IMG/VR virus record: IMGVR_UViG_3300037357_000069
Span: 1 to 22,220 of that record
Length of the DNA: 22,220 nt
Source: a virus
Reading direction: 5' to 3' (one strand)
The position numbers were made by a program, and so were the translations under genes. Positions 12,639-22,220 of the stretch are shown here, in pieces; within the stretch, counting starts at the first letter, position 1, and each line of letters opens with the position of its first letter. The notes beneath the pieces are model-generated. The model was not told the DNA's origin. It did no database searches and was given only the letters and a program-made list of their open reading frames with translations.

Positions 12639-14720
12639 TTAGATGTTGGCCGGGTCGGTGCTCGCGCAGACCGAGGCCGGATGGCGCAACGCCGAATCCA
12701 TGAACAAGTGCATCAGGATGCGATAAGTAGCCGAACTGGCCTGCGTGTAGGGGTCAACAAGAACGTCCAATCCGCCGAAAAACGCGATGATCAATTCTTC
12801 CCAATTCGCGAAGATCATGATGTTATTCAGGATTTGATTGCTGGCCATTGCGGGATAGCCGTTGATCATCCCCTCGCCTTCCGCGTCTTGCCCGTCCCAC
12901 AGGGCGATTTGCACAACGGTGGTGGCCCCGGTGAGAGTCTTCGCCGTCTGCTTGAGTATTCCCCGGCTGGAAGCCGAGGTGACATAGGCCATCTTGCCGA
13001 TGTCCGCATTGAGAATCGCCAGCGCGGTTTCCATGTTGACCAACGAAGCGAAAGTAGGAGCGCCCCCGAAAGTAATGGAACCAATACCAGGCTGATTGAC
13101 CATGCCGACAGGCTCATCAGCCCCGCCGCCGCCAAACATAGCGAGATAGTCTGTTTTGATGGCGAGAACCTTGCTGGCATCGCTCATCATAAAACCTTGG
13201 ATGTCCACCCCGGCCACTGCTTGTTTCAAAAGCTGCAAGCTGAAACGGCCTTCATAGGACAGGCGATGTGGTGTCAAAGGAATCTGATCAATCTGTTGAT
13301 TTGCCACCTGTGTTACTCCCAGCTCGGGCAGAGAGTAGAATGTCGCCGGGGCCGTCTGGCGAGGCAGTAGCATGTTCGCCGTGAGTCCGGCCATTGTCAT
13401 CGCCCCGCGCTTGTAGCACACGAGCCGGTTGCGAAGAAGTTCGATGACCTTGCTGTCCAACACGGTGGGCACCAGCGCGCCGCCTTGCCCGAAATTGCCA
13501 ACGGACATATCGCGCCCTTGGGCGCGCCCGTAACCAACGATTGTTCCCTTTTTCTCGCCGGTGCCAAGGATGGGCACTGAGTTTTCGTAAGAACGAAACC
13601 GCACATCGAAAGGAACCATGAAGCCTTTCGGGGTAATGTCGCCCTCGAAAGTCTTGGTGATACCATCGTGCCATTCGCGCTCGATCCCGTCCTTTGGTTG
13701 ACGAGAATCATGCTTGATGCAAGACAGGATGGCCCGAACCAAATCGTAGGACTTAATATCGTCTTCGCTGTAACCCTCGCTGGCCATCGTCCGAATTTCG
13801 GCCGGCTTCTTGACACCCAGGGCGGTCTGGTAGAGTTTCGCCCGTTCGGTTTCCAGACACACTTCGCCGTCGCGAGTGTCAAGTTCCGCGAGGTATTCGC
13901 GGATAGCTTTTTCCGTGTGCGGGTTTTCATCGATGGTGGTTTTTCCGATGGCGCGAAGCTCCTTCATCGTCGCCCTGTGACGCTTCAACGGGTCCGCGAC
14001 TGGCGCACCGCCGCCGCCTTCACCAGCACCTGCATCGAGTAAAATTCTCATACGTTTCTTTTCTTCTTCGGACATTCGCGGAATGATAAGTTCCACATTT
14101 ACTTTTTTTGGGGAGTCAACTTGAGAGTGGGCGCGCTCCAATTCCGCGCCGCATGCCGGGCAGGTTTCCGTGTCCTGTTCTGTCAATAATGCGGAACATT
14201 CCGGGCAGATGTTATCCAGGTCGGATCGATCCCGGCCAATCCCTACTTTGACATCGGCGGGAACAGGAACGATGGCTATGTGGGTGGGCCTCCACCGATA
14301 GCGCGTTGTCACCATGCCATCAGCAGCTTTATTTGACTCTACGACGCCGGTGCGGTCGTAACCTACGGAGATGTTTTTGCGGATGCCGTCTTGAACGTCC
14401 TGAAAGATTTCCTTGGCAAGCGCAGAATTTCCGAAGCGAACCACCGCTCGACCCTTTCCGTCCTGCACATTGGCGGATTCAATGACACCAATTTGCGAAG
14501 CCGGATCATGTTCGTCGTGGCCGAGTAAGAGGGGATGGTTCCCTGAGTTGATTCGTGAAAAATCATACTCGCCGTCTTTGTGGGAAAGAACTTCGTTCCC
14601 ATCCCATCTTTCAACGGGAGTTTCGCTGCTGAATGACAGTTCCGCCGTGCGCTTCGCGGCGTCTATCTTTGCGCGGTCTATTGTCACTTTCAACCGCAGG
14701 TGTTTGATTTGCTTCGCCAT
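12639..14720 (-). CDS. Prohead protease - HK97-fold major capsid fusion
   Basis: 693 residues. Residues 1-165 are a prohead protease of the HK97/U35 type: a His-containing segment LLGHDEHDPASQIG (His68/His71) and the Ser-containing ISVGY (Ser118), followed by HIAIVPVPADV. Residues 172-190 are a zinc ribbon with CPEC and CPAC. The linker runs to about residue 215. From Met216 (14075) a Glu/Lys-rich scaffold-like helix precedes an HK97-fold capsid domain (ALVPTVLDSKVIELLRNR, then GADEPVGM and PAMASNQI). The protease would cut the scaffold region and itself during head maturation. Protease-capsid fusions are known in lambda-like phages. The gene-start motif at the junction suggests two formerly separate genes. 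It lies between the portal and a secreted protein. Confidence 0.85.
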   Translation of the reverse strand: MAKQIKHLRLKVTIDRAKIDAAKRTAELSFSSETPVERWDGNEVLSHKDGEYDFSRINSGNHPLLLGHDEHDPASQIGVIESANVQDGKGRAVVRFGNSALAKEIFQDVQDGIRKNISVGYDRTGVVESNKAADGMVTTRYRWRPTHIAIVPVPADVKVGIGRDRSDLDNICPECSALLTEQDTETCPACGAELERAHSQVDSPKKVNVELIIPRMSEEEKKRMRILLDAGAGEGGGGAPVADPLKRHRATMKELRAIGKTTIDENPHTEKAIREYLAELDTRDGEVCLETERAKLYQTALGVKKPAEIRTMASEGYSEDDIKSYDLVRAILSCIKHDSRQPKDGIEREWHDGITKTFEGDITPKGFMVPFDVRFRSYENSVPILGTGEKKGTIVGYGRAQGRDMSVGNFGQGGALVPTVLDSKVIELLRNRLVCYKRGAMTMAGLTANMLLPRQTAPATFYSLPELGVTQVANQQIDQIPLTPHRLSYEGRFSLQLLKQAVAGVDIQGFMMSDASKVLAIKTDYLAMFGGGGADEPVGMVNQPGIGSITFGGAPTFASLVNMETALAILNADIGKMAYVTSASSRGILKQTAKTLTGATTVVQIALWDGQDAEGEGMINGYPAMASNQILNNIMIFANWEELIIAFFGGLDVLVDPYTQASSATYRILMHLFMDSALRHPASVCASTDPANI
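14103..14120 (-). promoter_or_regulatory. Recurrent gene-start motif, copy 3, inside fusion gene
   Basis: GTTGACTCC-N5-AAAA within the coding sequence at codons about 200-206, between the protease zinc ribbon and the capsid part. The other three copies lie at gene starts, so this one looks like a retained gene boundary. Confidence 0.45.
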
Positions 14721-16841: not shown

Positions 16842-17465
16842 TTATCCCCACAATCCGCGAAAAGTTAAAGTGCCAGTAACCGCGCCGGGCGGCGTGATGC
16901 TCGCCAGTCCGCCGATATGTTGCCCAGTGTCCTGGCCGTTATGGGCGCGTTCCATTTGCCTTTCATTGCGGCGTTTGCAAGCCCAATATCCATGCCAGTA
17001 AACGAGCTGTTCCGGTGTCAAGAATTTAAACATGGTCTCGCCGATGCGCGATTCGAGAATAGTCTGGCTTGCCGTGCCTTCCATGACGGCCTCTATTTTT
17101 GCGAGCATCCGTTGAGCAAGGGTTGTGACCGGCACGTCTCCAGGGGTGCCTTGCAAATTCAAAGCTATCTTCAGTTCGCCATAGTAGATTCTTTCGCGCG
17201 TCGGCGGGGCTGCGTTTGGATTGACCGCGTAACCGGCCATGTAAGCGTCACAAGGAAGCCACAACGCGCTGACGCCAGCCGCCACAATGATTCGATGCCC
17301 GATGTTATCCTGGGCTGGCGTGGATTGAAACGAGATCGGCTGATCCGCCCCGCGAATTTCATAATCCAAGTAACAGCCGGTCCCGCTGGGATATTCCGGT
17401 ATCCAGCGACACCATTCGATTGTATCCCCGGCTGCAACTGCTATTGGCTCTCTGCGTTCAAGCAT
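16842..17465 (-). CDS. Head-tail joining type protein with Ig-like N-terminus
   Basis: 207 residues starting MLERREPIAVAAGDTIEWCR, with GGTGA ahead of the ATG. The first ~115 residues form a beta-rich Ig-like domain (GDTIEWCRWIPEYPSGTGCY, IIVAAGVSALWLPCDAYMAG). Residues about 118-175 (LAQRMLAKIEAVMEG, later FLTPEQLVYWHGYWACKRRN) have the helical hairpin pattern of small lambda gpW-type or adjacent head-tail joining proteins encoded next to portals. These usually add at the head-tail interface. Upstream is a palindromic element containing TTGACT. The assignment is by pattern and by position directly before the portal block. Confidence 0.55.
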   Translation of the reverse strand: MLERREPIAVAAGDTIEWCRWIPEYPSGTGCYLDYEIRGADQPISFQSTPAQDNIGHRIIVAAGVSALWLPCDAYMAGYAVNPNAAPPTRERIYYGELKIALNLQGTPGDVPVTTLAQRMLAKIEAVMEGTASQTILESRIGETMFKFLTPEQLVYWHGYWACKRRNERQMERAHNGQDTGQHIGGLASITPPGAVTGTLTFRGLWG

Positions 17466-17480
17466 TCACCATTTAGGGTG

Positions 17481-17493
17481 AGTCAAATTGACT
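17481..17493. promoter_or_regulatory. Palindromic operator-like site AGTCAAATTGACT
   Basis: A 13-base perfect inverted repeat (AGTCAA-A-TTGACT) in the short gap before the head-tail joining gene, 16 bases from its ATG. Both arms contain the TTGAC core that is enriched across the window. It could be an operator. Confidence 0.4.
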
Positions 17494-17497
17494 TAAA

Positions 17498-17674
17498 CTA
17501 TGGCCATTCTTTTGGGAATGCCCTCTTTGCCACTCTGTAAGCTATTAAATCTTGAAGGCGATGGAGTGAAAATTTGAATTCTTGAACCTCATCCGGGTGG
17601 AACTTTTTCAATTTCAGATATTCACTCCATGCAGAAACTAACAATCGCATGATTTTTCTTTCGCGCCTGCTCAT
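17498..17674 (-). CDS. Small phage protein, 58 residues
   Basis: Reads MSRRERKIMRLLVSAWSEYL, then KLKKFHPDEVQEFKFSLHRL and QDLIAYRVAKRAFPKEWP before TAG. The pattern AW...F/L..HPD-D/E-V-x-EF...IH-x-x-Q is one I recognise from short conserved phage proteins encoded near packaging/portal genes, of unknown function. It is helical and basic. Its ATG lies 13 bases inside the MKPYYEQ methylase-start relic, and it has no clear Shine-Dalgarno. It is too short to stand out by length but its protein character is good. Confidence 0.65.
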   Translation of the reverse strand: MSRRERKIMRLLVSAWSEYLKLKKFHPDEVQEFKFSLHRLQDLIAYRVAKRAFPKEWP

Positions 17675-17687
17675 AATACGGTTTCAT
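17622..17687 (-). pseudogene. Short frame starting like a DNA methyltransferase, relic 2
   Basis: Six bases after the Dam stop an ATG begins MKPYYEQARKKNHAIVSFCME and then stops. MKPYYE is the usual start of phage N4/N6 DNA methyltransferases, but similarity ends after seven or eight residues. Compared with relic 1 (22067), the changes fall at third codon positions in this frame. The start of the 58-residue gene is 13 bases downstream, exactly as at the terminase. No Shine-Dalgarno is visible. Confidence 0.4.
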
Positions 17688-17693
17688 AGTGAC

Positions 17694-18728
17694 TTAGAGT
17701 AACTTTCCCTGCTTTGATCTTTCGCAATGCGGAGAAAACCAGACTCTCTCTTTTTTACCGTTGTATGTCTTTTCTTTTGCTCGCGCTCCGTGTCCTACCC
17801 CGGCGTCCCATGAATAACACTCCCATTCGGACGGCATAACGTGCTCGCCTTCGTATCCGCAAAGAGCTATCCGCATCAATGGGTTTTTGCCTTGCTCAAT
17901 GGCCCATTCCCGCACTTCATGCGCCACTTTCAAATCGTCCACCCTGTATAATGAATCACATCGATTGGCAGTATCGGCATAGGGAGGGTCAAGAAACACT
18001 CCCGTCATTCCGTGAAAGATTGTCACGGATGGGCCGCAAACCCTTTTCCAATCTCCGCAGCAAACGCGGACTTTTTTTAACCGATCCGCAAGCTCTCTAA
18101 AGTAGTCAACCAAATCTTGTCGGGCGCAAACTTCTCTGGACCTTCCAAGGTGGACTAGCTGCCGATTCACTCCATTGCCTCCGCTAAGGTGGACTAGCTG
18201 CCGTTTCACTCCATTGCCTCCGCTAAGGTGGACTAGCTGCCGATTCACTCCATTGCCTCCGCTAAGGTGGACTAGCTGCCGAATTCCGTCTTTCTCCACT
18301 ACTCTCCACGGTCCTGAGCCATTACAGAATCCACTTCCTATCCAACACGCCATCCCCCATACCCACCATCCCGCGACCTTAACATCGAAGAAATCAGGGT
18401 CGCCCTCAAGTTTTGATTGCAGAGAATCTTTCCTGCCAACTAACCATGCGTGTCTCGCGTGCAAATCATTTTCGTTGACTGGCCAGTCAGCATGAAACGC
18501 CACTGCATCAGGATCGGTTTTTAATGCACGCCAGAAATTGCTCACAAGGCCGTCTTTGTCATTGATGGTTTCGGTTGACAATTCCCCTGGCCTGTTGAGT
18601 AGCACGGCCCCGCTTCCAAAGAACGGCTCCACGTAGTTAGCAATTTTCCCGAATCGACTCCACACTATTTCCGCGACTTTCCTCTTGCCGCCAAAGTAAG
18701 GAAATGGGGATTTTAGGAATTCATTCAT
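17694..18728 (-). CDS. dam: Dam-type DNA adenine methyltransferase with internal repeat array
   Basis: 344 residues, longer than E. coli Dam (278). Class D12 motifs are in order: SPFPYFGGKRK at 7-17 (cofactor side), EPFFGSGAV at 34-42 (motif I), and DPPY at 247-250 (catalytic motif IV). ERVWFSPHC lies near the C-terminus. It methylates adenine in DNA, most likely protecting phage DNA from host restriction or affecting packaging. Residues about 150-195 contain four tandem 13-residue units (RQLVHLSGGNGVN type) between motif I and DPPY, where the target-recognition region lies. The ATG overlaps the stop of a 9-codon mini-cistron (ATGA). A phage-style Dam with this kind of HLxGG repeat is, to my recollection, seen in other phages. 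Confidence 0.85.
   Translation of the reverse strand: MNEFLKSPFPYFGGKRKVAEIVWSRFGKIANYVEPFFGSGAVLLNRPGELSTETINDKDGLVSNFWRALKTDPDAVAFHADWPVNENDLHARHAWLVGRKDSLQSKLEGDPDFFDVKVAGWWVWGMACWIGSGFCNGSGPWRVVEKDGIRQLVHLSGGNGVNRQLVHLSGGNGVKRQLVHLSGGNGVNRQLVHLGRSREVCARQDLVDYFRELADRLKKVRVCCGDWKRVCGPSVTIFHGMTGVFLDPPYADTANRCDSLYRVDDLKVAHEVREWAIEQGKNPLMRIALCGYEGEHVMPSEWECYSWDAGVGHGARAKEKTYNGKKERVWFSPHCERSKQGKLL
18147..18281 (-). repeat. 39-bp tandem repeat (minisatellite) inside dam
   Basis: Three full copies and an 18-base partial fourth, starting at 18147, 18186, 18225 and 18264. The units are nearly identical. 39 is a multiple of 3, so copy-number change keeps the reading frame and alters only the length of a 13-residue loop (RQLVHLSGGNGV-N/K). 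Confidence 0.9.
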
Positions 18729-18754
18729 TGGCGGGGTAACACCTTGTCAATCAT
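18725..18754 (-). CDS. 9-codon mini-cistron coupled to dam
   Basis: ATG at 18754 starts MIDKVLPRQ and stops at TGA overlapping the dam ATG (ATGA). It has the strong Shine-Dalgarno AAAGGA at good spacing (GAAAGGAAATC-ATG), whereas the dam ATG has none at usable spacing. Ribosomes could load here and re-initiate on dam, giving translational control of methylase level. The peptide itself need not be functional. Confidence 0.4.
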   Translation of the reverse strand: MIDKVLPRQ

Positions 18755-18773
18755 GATTTCCTTTCAGGCCTGC

Positions 18774-19466
18774 TCATTTTTTCTTGGTTAGAGATTCAAG
18801 CTGTTTTTGTTTGGCAAGGGAAAGTATTTCTTCCAATTGCGCAGGCGTGAAGGTGCAAGGGCATTTGAATTCCACCAATCCATCGTCCAGAATTAGATAG
18901 CGAACCTTATTCTTCGATTGGCCGCTTGCAGCGGTCGGCTTTGCAAAAAGAGCCGATGCCCAAGCGCGGTCGCCGACATAACTATCAACGCCATGACCGC
19001 TTGCAGCGGTCGGCTTTGCAGGGGTCCTTGCCTGCTGTTCTCTCAACGGGCGCAAACCTGATTCCTTAATGGCTGTCTTGGCCTCCTGGCGTGAAAGCTC
19101 TGCGATTGGCTTGTATGCCACTTTCCCGTCTTTATCCATAACAGGAACTTCTCCGAGGTCATAGATTTCCTTTTGAAATTTGGCCGGCAAGGTGGCAATC
19201 AGTTTACTGGCCGGGCAGTTATATGTAAGGCACCTAATGTCGAGCCTGCCTTCTCCGATGGCAAGGAAGGCGTCATACATTTCCTGGCTGATGCTTGGAA
19301 TGTGTTTGCACAAGAGCTTGCCGTAATTCTTGAATTTGGCCGCGTGCTCCGCAACCGAATGGGCGAACAGCTGCATGTTCCTTACGATGCCTTCGTTAAA
19401 GATTTTAGCGTCTTGCGCGATGGCGAGTTGAACTGTTTCATTGATAACTTCGACTTTTTTACTCAT
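18774..19466 (-). CDS. Unrecognised 230-residue protein with duplicated AKPTAASG
   Basis: Starts MSKKVEVINETVQLAIAQDA. Residues 1-150 are helical and charged, with a Cys pair in IRCLTYNCPASKL and a segment YDLGEVPVMDKDGKVAYKPI. The segment of about residues 145-185 contains two copies of AKPTAASG 25 residues apart, encoded by identical 24-bp DNA with hairpin potential, so this stretch may be a later insertion. The C-terminus is Lys-rich (LEEILSLAKQKQLESLTKKK). The family is not recognised. The helical N-terminal part and position between the Arg-repeat protein and dam suggest a nucleic-acid-associated role, but this is only inference. Confidence 0.6.
   Translation of the reverse strand: MSKKVEVINETVQLAIAQDAKIFNEGIVRNMQLFAHSVAEHAAKFKNYGKLLCKHIPSISQEMYDAFLAIGEGRLDIRCLTYNCPASKLIATLPAKFQKEIYDLGEVPVMDKDGKVAYKPIAELSRQEAKTAIKESGLRPLREQQARTPAKPTAASGHGVDSYVGDRAWASALFAKPTAASGQSKNKVRYLILDDGLVEFKCPCTFTPAQLEEILSLAKQKQLESLTKKK
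18922..18945. repeat. 24-bp hairpin-forming repeat, copy 1
   Basis: Identical to 18997-19020 over 24 bases. The core is an inverted repeat CCGCT-TGC-AGCGG. On the minus strand it encodes AKPTAASG. Confidence 0.8.
18997..19020. repeat. 24-bp hairpin-forming repeat, copy 2
   Basis: With the two preceding bases it forms a perfect 7-bp stem GACCGCT-TGC-AGCGGTC at 18995-19011. It resembles a REP-type palindromic repeat placed in a coding sequence in a tolerated frame. Confidence 0.8.
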
Positions 19467-19478
19467 AGCTTTATTTGT

Positions 19479-19862
19479 TTATGTTAATGTTTGACCGATT
19501 GATTCTATTACCGAAAGCATGGCGATGTATTTTTGAAGGGATCGGGTAGGGCCTCTGATCTTAAGATTGTGTTTTCTCGCCGCTTCCCTCACTCGATCTG
19601 GACGCCTAAGGCGATATTTTCTCCTTGCTTCCCTCACTCGATCTGGATGCCTAAGGCGATATTTTCTCATTGTTTCCCTATTGTAATCTGGATGCCTAAG
19701 GCGAAATTTTCTATTTGATTCCCTCGCTGATTCCCTAACTCGATCTGGATGCCTAAGGCGATATCTTCTCTTTGCTTCCCTCGCTGATTCCCTAACTCGA
19801 TCTGGATGCCTAAGGCGATATCTTTGTTCCCTTGTAAGGCCGTCATTTATTTTTTCTCTCAT
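19479..19862 (-). CDS. Arg-rich tandem-repeat protein, possible HNH endonuclease remnant
   Basis: 127 residues, ATG overlapping the terminase stop (ATGA). After MREKINDGLTREQR come five units of YRLRHPDRVRE type with spacing 19, 19, 15 and 15 residues: SAREAKRR and SARESNRK link the longer units, and TMRK and ARRK link the shorter. The end (SLQKYIAMLSVIESIGQTLT) is not repetitive. Such YR-x-x-HPD/NPE-x-x-RE repeats are familiar as the N-terminal DNA-binding portion of some phage and viral HNH endonucleases. HNH genes next to terminase are common and aid end formation. No HNH catalytic motif is present, so this is either a stand-alone DNA-binding protein or a remnant of such an enzyme. Confidence 0.6.
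   Translation of the reverse strand: MREKINDGLTREQRYRLRHPDRVRESAREAKRRYRLRHPDRVRESARESNRKFRLRHPDYNRETMRKYRLRHPDRVREARRKYRLRRPDRVREAARKHNLKIRGPTRSLQKYIAMLSVIESIGQTLT
19592..19821 (-). repeat. Tandem DNA repeats of 57 and 45 bp
   Basis: Five copies of a 26-base core (CTCGATCTGGATGCCTAAGG on the plus strand, then CGATAT) begin at 19592, 19637, 19682, 19739 and 19796. The steps are 45, 45, 57 and 57 bases, all multiples of three. The 19682 copy has diverged at its first four bases. They encode the repeats of the Arg-rich protein. Confidence 0.85.
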
Positions 19863-22054
19863 AGCCCAAACGGGTTATATTTCCCTCCACTACGAGGCCC
19901 GCCAATGCTCTTAAACGGGCTTCTAGGACGCTCTGGCCTGGCTTCTGGTATCTTCACGGCCTTTGGCTCGTGCAGCGTCTCAGGCTGTCTCAATTCATAT
20001 TCTCTCACAGTCTGAGAAGCGGCCGGGGCCGGTTGCGTTTCCATCTTCACCGGCGCTGGCATTTTAAGCAAAACCTCTTTCCATTTTCGGGCGATCCATT
20101 CCACCACTCCACTCCTGCGATTCCACTCCAGGCCCCCATTGGCATAGACAAGCATGTCGAACGGTTCGTTTCTCTCAGAGGGAGTTAGCTTGCGCCACTC
20201 CGAAATATAAGTCCCATTGCGCTGTTGAATTGACACTTTTTTCTCCGAGCAAACCCCTTGGAAAAACTTTTCATCAAATACCTTGGATTTGGGAAAGTGA
20301 ATTGAGTTAGGGCCGTCCGAGTTATGCAGGTTTCCCGCCACGGTATTCTTGAGATAATCCACATTGAAGTTCAGGACGTAGATTCCGAAAGCTCTTTCTT
20401 TGACGCCGGTAACAATGGAAGATAGCATTTTCGACATGCCAAACCCTTTGATGGCATAGACGTTTTTGTTCTTGTGGTTTCGGCAGAACCGATAGACCGC
20501 TTTTTGCTTGTGTCCTGAGTCCACAAAACCGGAATGGTATGCCATGTCGCCCAGGACGGGATGTTGAAACCTCTTGCCGAACAAATGCTCCGCAACCCGA
20601 TCTTGAAAAGCAGGCATGTCAAAGTCCCCATAAATCACGTTGTAGCCAAGCACCCAGGATTGCTCTGAATCTCCAAAACCGATTGACAGGATTTCTACCC
20701 GGTCGGCTTGGATGTCCATTGAGAATTCAACCAGCATCACGCCGACCGGGGTTGTCTTTTCATCCACCGCAGAGAACCCTAATGCGCGAAGTTCTACCCT
20801 GTAATCCTCCGCTCTGTCATACAGAACTTTCCAATCTACTTTTTCGGATTGATCTTCAAAGACTTCCGTTTTCTTTACGTTAGTCCAGACCATGAAAGTT
20901 TCCCGGCCTCCATGAACCGCCTCCAGGAATTCATCCGCGTTTTGGTGCAAGTAGGTGTCGAAGCCTTGCTTCAAGCCGATGGTCAAATACATCGTCGAAA
21001 GGTGCCTTGACCGAATGCCATTGAATGCCGCTGTAGGCCTCCACGTTGCGCGCAGGTCGATTCCGTTGACACGGATGGCCGGATTGTCCTCGTGTCCAGA
21101 CATGTAGCTGGCAATGCGTTGTGAGTCAGTCCAACCATGCTTGCACTCTTCGCAGATGTAGATGGCTCGCCTCGTGTCGCGCAACGGGAATTCTCCTATC
21201 TCGAAAGCCCTATCAGTCGGATGCCGGCCATCTGTCAAGTGTTTATACTCATCTTCCGTGAAAGAGAATTTGTTATGCTCGGTCTTGAGCCATTGCATGA
21301 ATCCGCAGTGCGGGCATGGCACAAAGTATTTTTGCTGGTCCCCTCGTTTGTATCCGGCGTCAATACGAGAGAATCCGGCAAGCGTAGGAGTGGAGGCTGC
21401 ATTGATCCAAGCATCGCCAAAGGTGGTTGCGGCTCGAATAAGCAACGCCATTTGATCCCCTTCCTTCGTTGCTTTGTAGGCGTCAACTTCGTCGAAGAAT
21501 AACTTCCCCGCCGATGTAGAACGCATTTTTGAAGTCGCATTGCTGCCCATAACTCGGATTGACCCCCCAGGGAAACGACGATTCAACCCGGTGGATTTAC
21601 TATCGCGCATCCTCGGTTCCTTCAATAATCCTTCCATACAAGGAGTGTCTTCAACCGTTGGCATGAATTTATCCCGCATCCAGTCAAGCGCGGTGTCCTC
21701 TGTTTGCCGCATCATAATTATTGACTGCCGAAGTTCGGCAATGCAGTAACAGCATTGGATTATTTGCACGAGCGTTTTCCCAAGCTGCCCGCCTATCTCG
21801 TTGTAACTTTCCCGGACGCCAGGCGAGATTGGATCGTCAAGCATATCCCGCTCATGTGGCATTCTTGACAGATGATATTTTCCCGACTCTGCGTTGCCTT
21901 CGGACGGCACGCGGGCGTTTTTTTCCGCCCACTCAGAGATTTTCAACCTGCTTTTCGGAAGCAGGATTGCATTTTCTCGCTTATCAAATTCTTGAATCAC
22001 AAGAGAATTTCCTGCTGCAGTCGCCGTGGTAAATCTGAATGCCCGCGTGGTCAT
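19859..22054 (-). CDS. terL: Terminase large subunit, GpA family
   Basis: 731 residues from ATG 22054. It packages DNA into the prohead by ATP hydrolysis and cuts genome ends. Visible motifs: SEWA near residue 40 (family N-terminal landmark), Walker A GGQLGKT at 88-94, Walker B KLFFDEVDAY at 184-193, coupling AASTPT at 219-224, and a zinc ribbon with CPHCG at 247-251 and a later CEEC. The nuclease half contains the acidic segments SMDIQADRVEI and GFVDSGHKQKA. The last ~75 residues are Pro-rich. The start is uncertain. The ATG at 22054 has no Shine-Dalgarno and its first 18 codons share DNA with a methylase-like start. A GTG at 22000 with AGGA upstream is an attractive alternative. GpA family membership suggests cos-type packaging. 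Confidence 0.9.
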   Translation of the reverse strand: MTTRAFRFTTATAAGNSLVIQEFDKRENAILLPKSRLKISEWAEKNARVPSEGNAESGKYHLSRMPHERDMLDDPISPGVRESYNEIGGQLGKTLVQIIQCCYCIAELRQSIIMMRQTEDTALDWMRDKFMPTVEDTPCMEGLLKEPRMRDSKSTGLNRRFPGGSIRVMGSNATSKMRSTSAGKLFFDEVDAYKATKEGDQMALLIRAATTFGDAWINAASTPTLAGFSRIDAGYKRGDQQKYFVPCPHCGFMQWLKTEHNKFSFTEDEYKHLTDGRHPTDRAFEIGEFPLRDTRRAIYICEECKHGWTDSQRIASYMSGHEDNPAIRVNGIDLRATWRPTAAFNGIRSRHLSTMYLTIGLKQGFDTYLHQNADEFLEAVHGGRETFMVWTNVKKTEVFEDQSEKVDWKVLYDRAEDYRVELRALGFSAVDEKTTPVGVMLVEFSMDIQADRVEILSIGFGDSEQSWVLGYNVIYGDFDMPAFQDRVAEHLFGKRFQHPVLGDMAYHSGFVDSGHKQKAVYRFCRNHKNKNVYAIKGFGMSKMLSSIVTGVKERAFGIYVLNFNVDYLKNTVAGNLHNSDGPNSIHFPKSKVFDEKFFQGVCSEKKVSIQQRNGTYISEWRKLTPSERNEPFDMLVYANGGLEWNRRSGVVEWIARKWKEVLLKMPAPVKMETQPAPAASQTVREYELRQPETLHEPKAVKIPEARPERPRSPFKSIGGPRSGGKYNPFGL

Positions 22055-22067
22055 AGTAGGGTTTCAT
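21984..22067 (-). pseudogene. Short frame starting like a DNA methyltransferase, relic 1
   Basis: ATG at 22067 overlaps the upstream gene's TGA (ATGA) and has GGAAGGGGCTGGA ahead of it, a better ribosome site than the terminase ATG. It reads MKPYYDHAGIQIYHGDCSRK, then FSCDSRI and stop. MKPYYxxxGIxIYHGDC is the characteristic opening of phage N4/N6 DNA methyltransferases, including the start of motif I region. The rest of the enzyme is absent and the large terminase reads through the same DNA in another frame. Either a methylase relic left by deletion, or a translated leader. Confidence 0.55.
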
Positions 22068-22220
22068 ATTCCAGCCCCTTCCGTTAAAATATCATCCTCC
22101 AATTGCATTGCAGAGACTGGCTTTCCTTTGCTTTCTTTGTCTTTGACAAACTCAGTCCGTATATCGTCAATTACTTTTTGGATGGATGATTTCTGAGACT
22201 CACTAAGTCCAAGCTGGGAT
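22064..22220 (-). CDS. C-terminal end of probable small terminase subunit, partial
   Basis: The frame is open from the right edge and ends at TGA 22064-22066. Visible residues: SQLGLSESQKSSIQKVIDDI, then RTEFVKDKESKGKPVSAMQL and EDDILTEGAGI. They are charged and helical. The only support for a small-terminase role is that it immediately precedes the large terminase. The start and any DNA-binding helix-turn-helix are outside the window. Confidence 0.45.
   Translation of the reverse strand, partial: SQLGLSESQKSSIQKVIDDIRTEFVKDKESKGKPVSAMQLEDDILTEGAGI

Follow-up and report, generated by a model that had tools for sequence, protein, structure and literature searches.

Organization of the terminase locus

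The window, i.e. the whole stretch of DNA analysed here, is an entire IMG/VR virus record of 22,220 bases from an uncultivated phage. Its minus strand carries, in order, the end of the small terminase gene (terS), a short open reading frame that we call the stub, the large terminase gene (terL), a 2.4-kb accessory stretch, and the head-tail joining, portal and capsid genes. The features around the terS-terL junction are the following:

22064..22219, minus strand: terS, C-terminal 51 codons, the gene being cut by the contig end; its TGA stop overlaps the ATG of the stub (ATGA)
22075..22082, minus strand: Shine-Dalgarno-like GGAAGGGG of the stub, anti-Shine-Dalgarno duplex of -8.6 kcal/mol
21984..22067, minus strand: stub ORF, 27 codons, reading MKPYYDHAGIQIYHGDCSRKFSCDSRI and then a stop; matched by methyltransferase (MTase) profiles
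22003..22067, minus strand: MTase-derived DNA, certain over the first 17 codons and probable beyond them (nhmmer alignment, E 9.2e-14; the peptide of L237, then REILP)
22013..22014, minus strand: putative 2-base insertion (CA) within the Arg-Glu codons, as read from the nhmmer alignment
22008..22013, minus strand: AGGAAA, a weak Shine-Dalgarno for terL (duplex of -4.3 kcal/mol, not exceptional), within the putative MTase remnant
19859..22000, minus strand: terL, lambda gpA type, starting at GTG 22000 (Pfam and alignment with relatives)

The 27-codon frame from 22067 is present exactly as a preliminary description of this DNA had claimed, and so is the ATGA overlap with the upstream stop. The ribosome site called good there is indeed so, as the GGAAGGGG duplex ranks among roughly the strongest 5% of random window positions. 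Together, the ribosome site and the ATGA overlap suggest that the stub is still translated. The layout is that of a leader or coupling ORF, with a start overlapping the upstream stop and a stop near the downstream start.

The terS piece is 38.7% identical to the TerS of the related phage L156 over 31 aa (E 0.002), which itself belongs to phrog_141 (E 2.4e-9); directly compared with phrog_141, the piece gives a weak match (E 0.06). A terS gene occupies this position ahead of terL in L003, L156, L238, L239, and L240 too.

The large terminase starts at GTG 22000

TerL contains both domains of the gpA type (GpA_ATPase, PF05876, E 4e-48; GpA_nuclease, PF20454, E 6e-49; Pfam). Its relatives in L002, L003, L156, L238, and L239 are 42–52% identical to it, while those in bacterial genomes and phage GenBank reach about 21–31% identity at most. 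All five of the closer relatives start 19–22 residues before the conserved Arg of a (P/S)xR(L/M) segment. Of the two start codons between which the preliminary description proposed to decide by alignment, GTG 22000 lies 18 residues before this Arg and ATG 22054 lies 36, so the relatives favor the former. AGGAAA is found about nine bases upstream of GTG 22000.

A start at ATG 22054, with MTTRAFRFTTATAAGNS as the genuine N-terminus and the MTase likeness a coincidence, is open and in frame with terL, but we give it almost no credence. The MTase match far exceeds chance, the Shine-Dalgarno of this start is at background level (-3.3), and MTTRAFRFTTATAAGNS is what MTase starts give when read out of frame. 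The extension is found in no TerL relative; specifically, conservation of MTTRAFRFTT as a TerL N-terminus, which the preliminary description named as evidence against its reading, was looked for and is absent from every relative. The positions of the relatives' starts and the absence of MTTRAFRFTTATAAGNS from them thus place the start of terL at GTG 22000, which corrects its start codon. As such, the stub lies between terS and terL and overlaps terL by 17 bases, its stop falling 14 bases past the terL start; the earlier statement that it is embedded in the terminase gene would be true only with a start at 22054.

The stub is the opening of a phage methyltransferase gene

The preliminary description read the stub as the start of a phage N4/N6 DNA methyltransferase, and both DNA and protein profiles bear this out. 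A DNA profile built from 83 intact MTase starts has its sole strong match in the window at the stub (nhmmer, E 9.2e-14), and a protein profile of 99 intact MTases matches stub residues 1–17 (E 3.4e-10). The stub has the conserved N-terminal opening of phrog_67 MTases, MKPYYxxxxIxIYHGDC. Against phrog_67 itself (DNA methyltransferase, PHROGs) the match is weak (E 0.24, profile positions 115–131) because the piece is so short. A Pfam search with the 27-residue peptide returned no match. A match to a beak protein in a PDB search was dismissed as chance.

In a degenerate DNA pattern search, MKPYYxHAGIxIYHGDC is encoded exactly in 35 viral contigs, and in almost every case it begins a methyltransferase frame. 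A wider DNA pattern recovers 119 stretches, of which almost all are complete MTases containing a DPPY-type motif. When the AGIQ variant was targeted, the search revealed, in L237, an intact 246-residue MTase that begins (GTG)KPYYDHAGIQIYHGDCREILP and is identical to the stub peptide at 16 of 17 residues, the start codon being the one difference. Over the first 51 bases, L237 and the window differ at nine positions. One is in the start codon; the other eight all fall on third positions of MTase-frame codons and are synonymous in that frame. Translated in the terL frame, by contrast, these bases retain only 8 of 16 residues, which argues that the stub DNA was shaped as MTase coding sequence. On this comparison, the stub appears to have undergone little non-synonymous change since the MTase body was lost.

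The same counts bear on a local misassembly of the metagenome contig, in which an MTase start would have been joined to terL. The motif is common to many metagenome phages, and several stretches (L048, L057, L066, L076, and L077) terminate inside it or immediately beyond it, both of which would favor a misassembly. However, the stub shares at most 43 of 51 bases with any of the 35 exact-motif loci and 42 of 51 with L237 and L236, so that no long k-mer common to them is known; the flanking terS and terL moreover form a correct pair, and both reading overlaps are unbroken. We therefore consider misassembly very improbable.

What remains of the gene cannot be an enzyme. Catalytic motif IV, (D/N/S)PP(Y/F/W), is absent from the stub, whose ORF ends at codon 27, and so is the SAM-binding motif DPFMGSGTT, which lies near the MTase C-terminus; the distance from the stub start to the terL start is only about 66 bases. 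A protein-profile search of the window for further phrog_67-like pieces found none, except a sub-threshold match of 8 residues. With neither motif nor a body, the stub is a remnant, and we regard its MTase origin and its position as established.

Extent of the methyltransferase homology

Judging from the alignments, codons 1–17 (22067–22017) are certainly MTase-derived, and the homology probably extends through the Cys-Arg-Glu-Ile-Leu codons (22016–22003) up to the terL start. In the DNA profile, the window's TGCAG-CA-GGAAATTCTC aligns to these codons of the family with a 2-base insertion, and in the intact MTase of L237 the peptide shared with the stub is followed by REILP. An extension match this good occurs at about 5e-4 (0.05%) of random positions and about 5e-3 (0.5%) of Shine-Dalgarno-like positions, which makes homology past codon 17 probable and yet uncertain.

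If the extension is right, the joint lies at the terL start and the Arg-Glu codons of the MTase became the terL ribosome site. The 2-base insertion would have shifted the frame of the stub, whose stop would thereby fall 14 bases downstream of the terL start; without it, and if the extension is right, the stub stop would overlap the terL start as GTGA.

Variable gene content between terS and terL in gpA-type phages

Comparison of related loci indicates that gpA-type phages have, between terS and terL, a cargo slot whose content varies. It is empty in L156 (terL starts inside terS), L238 (ATGA), and L239 (three bases). In L003 it holds a 62-residue Cys-rich ORF with ATGA on the terS stop, and in L240 a 55-residue Cys-rich ORF, also with ATGA on the terS stop, followed by a DnaJ-like ORF; from reading of the sequences, the Cys-rich ORFs may be called zinc-ribbon-like, and the DnaJ-like label has the same basis.

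The preliminary description suggested a search for a full methyltransferase with this N-terminus between terS and terL, and one is found in a distant gpA phage, L091, where terS (phrog_57, E 1.6e-29) is followed through the same ATGA overlap by an N4/N6 MTase (phrog_67, E 1e-40, profile positions 115–347), a Dam-type MTase (phrog_111), and terL. The L091 TerL is 27% identical to that of the window. In a scan of TerL loci for MTases, the short MKPYY class occurs between terS and terL only in L091; in L145 and L109, an MTase of this class lies about 0.7–0.8 kb before terL with unassigned ORFs between. Large N4/N6-MTase-like ORFs often lie 0.5–3 kb before terL in other gpA phages, and these were not counted as slot occupants. 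Among close sister phages, taken as those with >55% TerL identity, none was found to have a full MTase in the slot, and no near-identical phage turned up in the collections searched, which may leave such records out.

Other features of the window

A second variable slot is the accessory stretch that separates terL from the head-tail joining gene (17465–19859, minus strand; 2.4 kb). L002 and L156 have almost nothing there, and it measures about 1.6 kb in L003 (a radical-SAM-like ORF and others) and 1.7 kb in L240. In the window, its 127-aa protein at 19479–19862 (minus strand) consists mostly of a repeated RYRLRHPDRVRE motif; its match to phrog_17714 is weak. The D12-class (Dam-like) methyltransferase at 17694–18728 (minus strand) has four in-frame tandem repeats (RQLVHLSGGNGVN...) in mid-gene, and its Pfam match is confined to the first 75 residues.

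A few bases past the stop of this gene is a second, very short MTase-like start, MKPYYEQ (17687–17622, minus strand; nhmmer E 0.0024), which overlaps the start of a 58-aa ORF matching phrog_13916 (annotated DNA ligase, E 7e-14). Either chance or a second MTase scar could account for MKPYYEQ.

Further along, the major capsid protein (12639–14720, minus strand) matches Phage_capsid only in its C-terminal part, and its N-terminal side is fused to a region of about 400 residues that is probably a prohead protease and includes a zinc-ribbon-like CPECSALLTEQDTETCPACG segment.

Stubs of the same start in other phages

Among 121 MTase starts, we find three other closed short stubs, in L141 (18 codons), L043 (19), and L047 (31); in L028 a longer truncation, of 96 codons, precedes a terS-terL pair of a different type. 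In L043 and L141, which are unrelated phages, the stub ends in an ATGA overlap with the gene that follows. At L043:10270–11200, the stub is followed by a small inserted gene for an XRE-like regulator and then by an intact MTase that has a PYYxxxGI opening of its own; on the reverse complement of L141 (5572–6412), it is followed by an inserted gene for a small hydrophobic protein and again by an intact MTase with a PYYxxxGI opening. These may be tandem MTases of which the first has decayed.

Such stubs bear on whether the 27-codon ORF is a functional short leader under present-day selection, coupling terS to terL or tuning the dose of TerL, a reading compatible with an MTase origin and not exclusive of a scar. 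Its good Shine-Dalgarno and ATGA overlap, a stop within reinitiation reach of a terL start whose own Shine-Dalgarno is weak, and the ATGA endings of the 18–19-codon stubs of L043 and L141 would all fit. Against this, the stub is present in one genome only, its last 10 codons have no counterpart, and its stub-less kin couple terS to terL directly (ATGA in L238, an overlap in L156), so a leader is not required. We hold selection as a leader to be a real but minority possibility.

The recurrence of stubs in other contexts (L043, L141, L047, and L028), together with the strong conservation of the MTase start across unrelated phages, also fits an import, i.e. recombination at the conserved first ~50 MTase bases that joined an end carrying terS plus an MTase start to an end carrying terL, with a full MTase never beside this terL. 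This seems unlikely, since both terminase genes of the window match one set of relatives (L156, L003, and L240), so that the two sides look like one lineage, and the terL side has no MTase homology for recombination.

More broadly, the conserved ~50 bases that open MTase genes might act as a recurrent genetic joint: after loss or swap of the body, the MTase start would persist together with its ribosome site as a short coupling ORF passing ribosomes to the next gene, with the window as one of several independent captures of one translation-start cassette. We rate this idea as more doubtful still. The stubs are few and 5' remnants are the easiest to recognize, so their recurrence is a lead and not a result.

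Proposed history of the junction

We consider it very likely that the stub is the decayed 5' end of a small phrog_67-type N4/N6 MTase gene, slot cargo deleted down to its start, with terL beginning at GTG 22000 and the stub probably still translated and perhaps a bridge between terS and terL. This is in essence the methylase gene between terS and terL, deleted to about 20 codons, that was first proposed; the L091 arrangement and the TerL N-termini support it.

Under this history, a small N4/N6 MTase gene would once have occupied the slot. A deletion or an equivalent recombination would then have taken everything past codon ~17–21, bringing the MTase start to the terL start, and a 2-base change, later or simultaneous, would have shifted the stub frame. 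As the stub begins with ATGA on the terS stop and ends 14 bases beyond the terL start, ribosomes leaving terS could read the stub and go on to terL by translational coupling or reinitiation, and the former Arg-Glu codons (AGGAAA) may serve as the weak terL ribosome site. Three elements of this history are inferences: that the deletion happened in place, where exactly the joint lies, and that the stub has a coupling role.

The event itself is of a familiar kind, gene decay at an accessory-gene slot. It is a clear example of an accessory methyltransferase reduced to a stub with the packaging operon unbroken, and as a scar of cargo-gene loss it is informative on phage evolution, with no new kind of system. 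Should stubs of the MTase start turn out to be under selection, they would account for the swapping of accessory genes inside tightly coupled phage operons. We found no description of a terS-stub-terL arrangement in the open-access literature, where absence proves little.

Comparison with known systems

Phage N4/N6 adenine/cytosine MTases of the phrog_67 type, orphan enzymes carried as morons, are the closest comparison. The 17 opening residues of the stub are those of intact members (e.g. L237), and the stub aligns to the same start of the phrog_67 profile as the L091 MTase; unlike these enzymes, it lacks motif IV (DPPY), the SAM-binding motif, and the body. The stubs of L043, L141, L047, and L028 share the conserved opening and have likewise lost the body, but their neighbors differ from those in the window, with an intact MTase following in L043 and L141 and the terS-terL of another terminase type in L028.

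With the slot genes of gpA-type phages (the MTase pair of L091 and the ORFs of L003 and L240), the stub shares its position and the ATGA junction with terS, which is how occupants of this variable slot usually begin; in the window, by contrast, only a stub of the cargo is left. The translationally coupled leader peptides found in operons of phages and bacteria are short ORFs with a Shine-Dalgarno and a stop that overlaps the next start region. The stub shares all of these features but, unlike such leaders, this candidate originates from an MTase gene.
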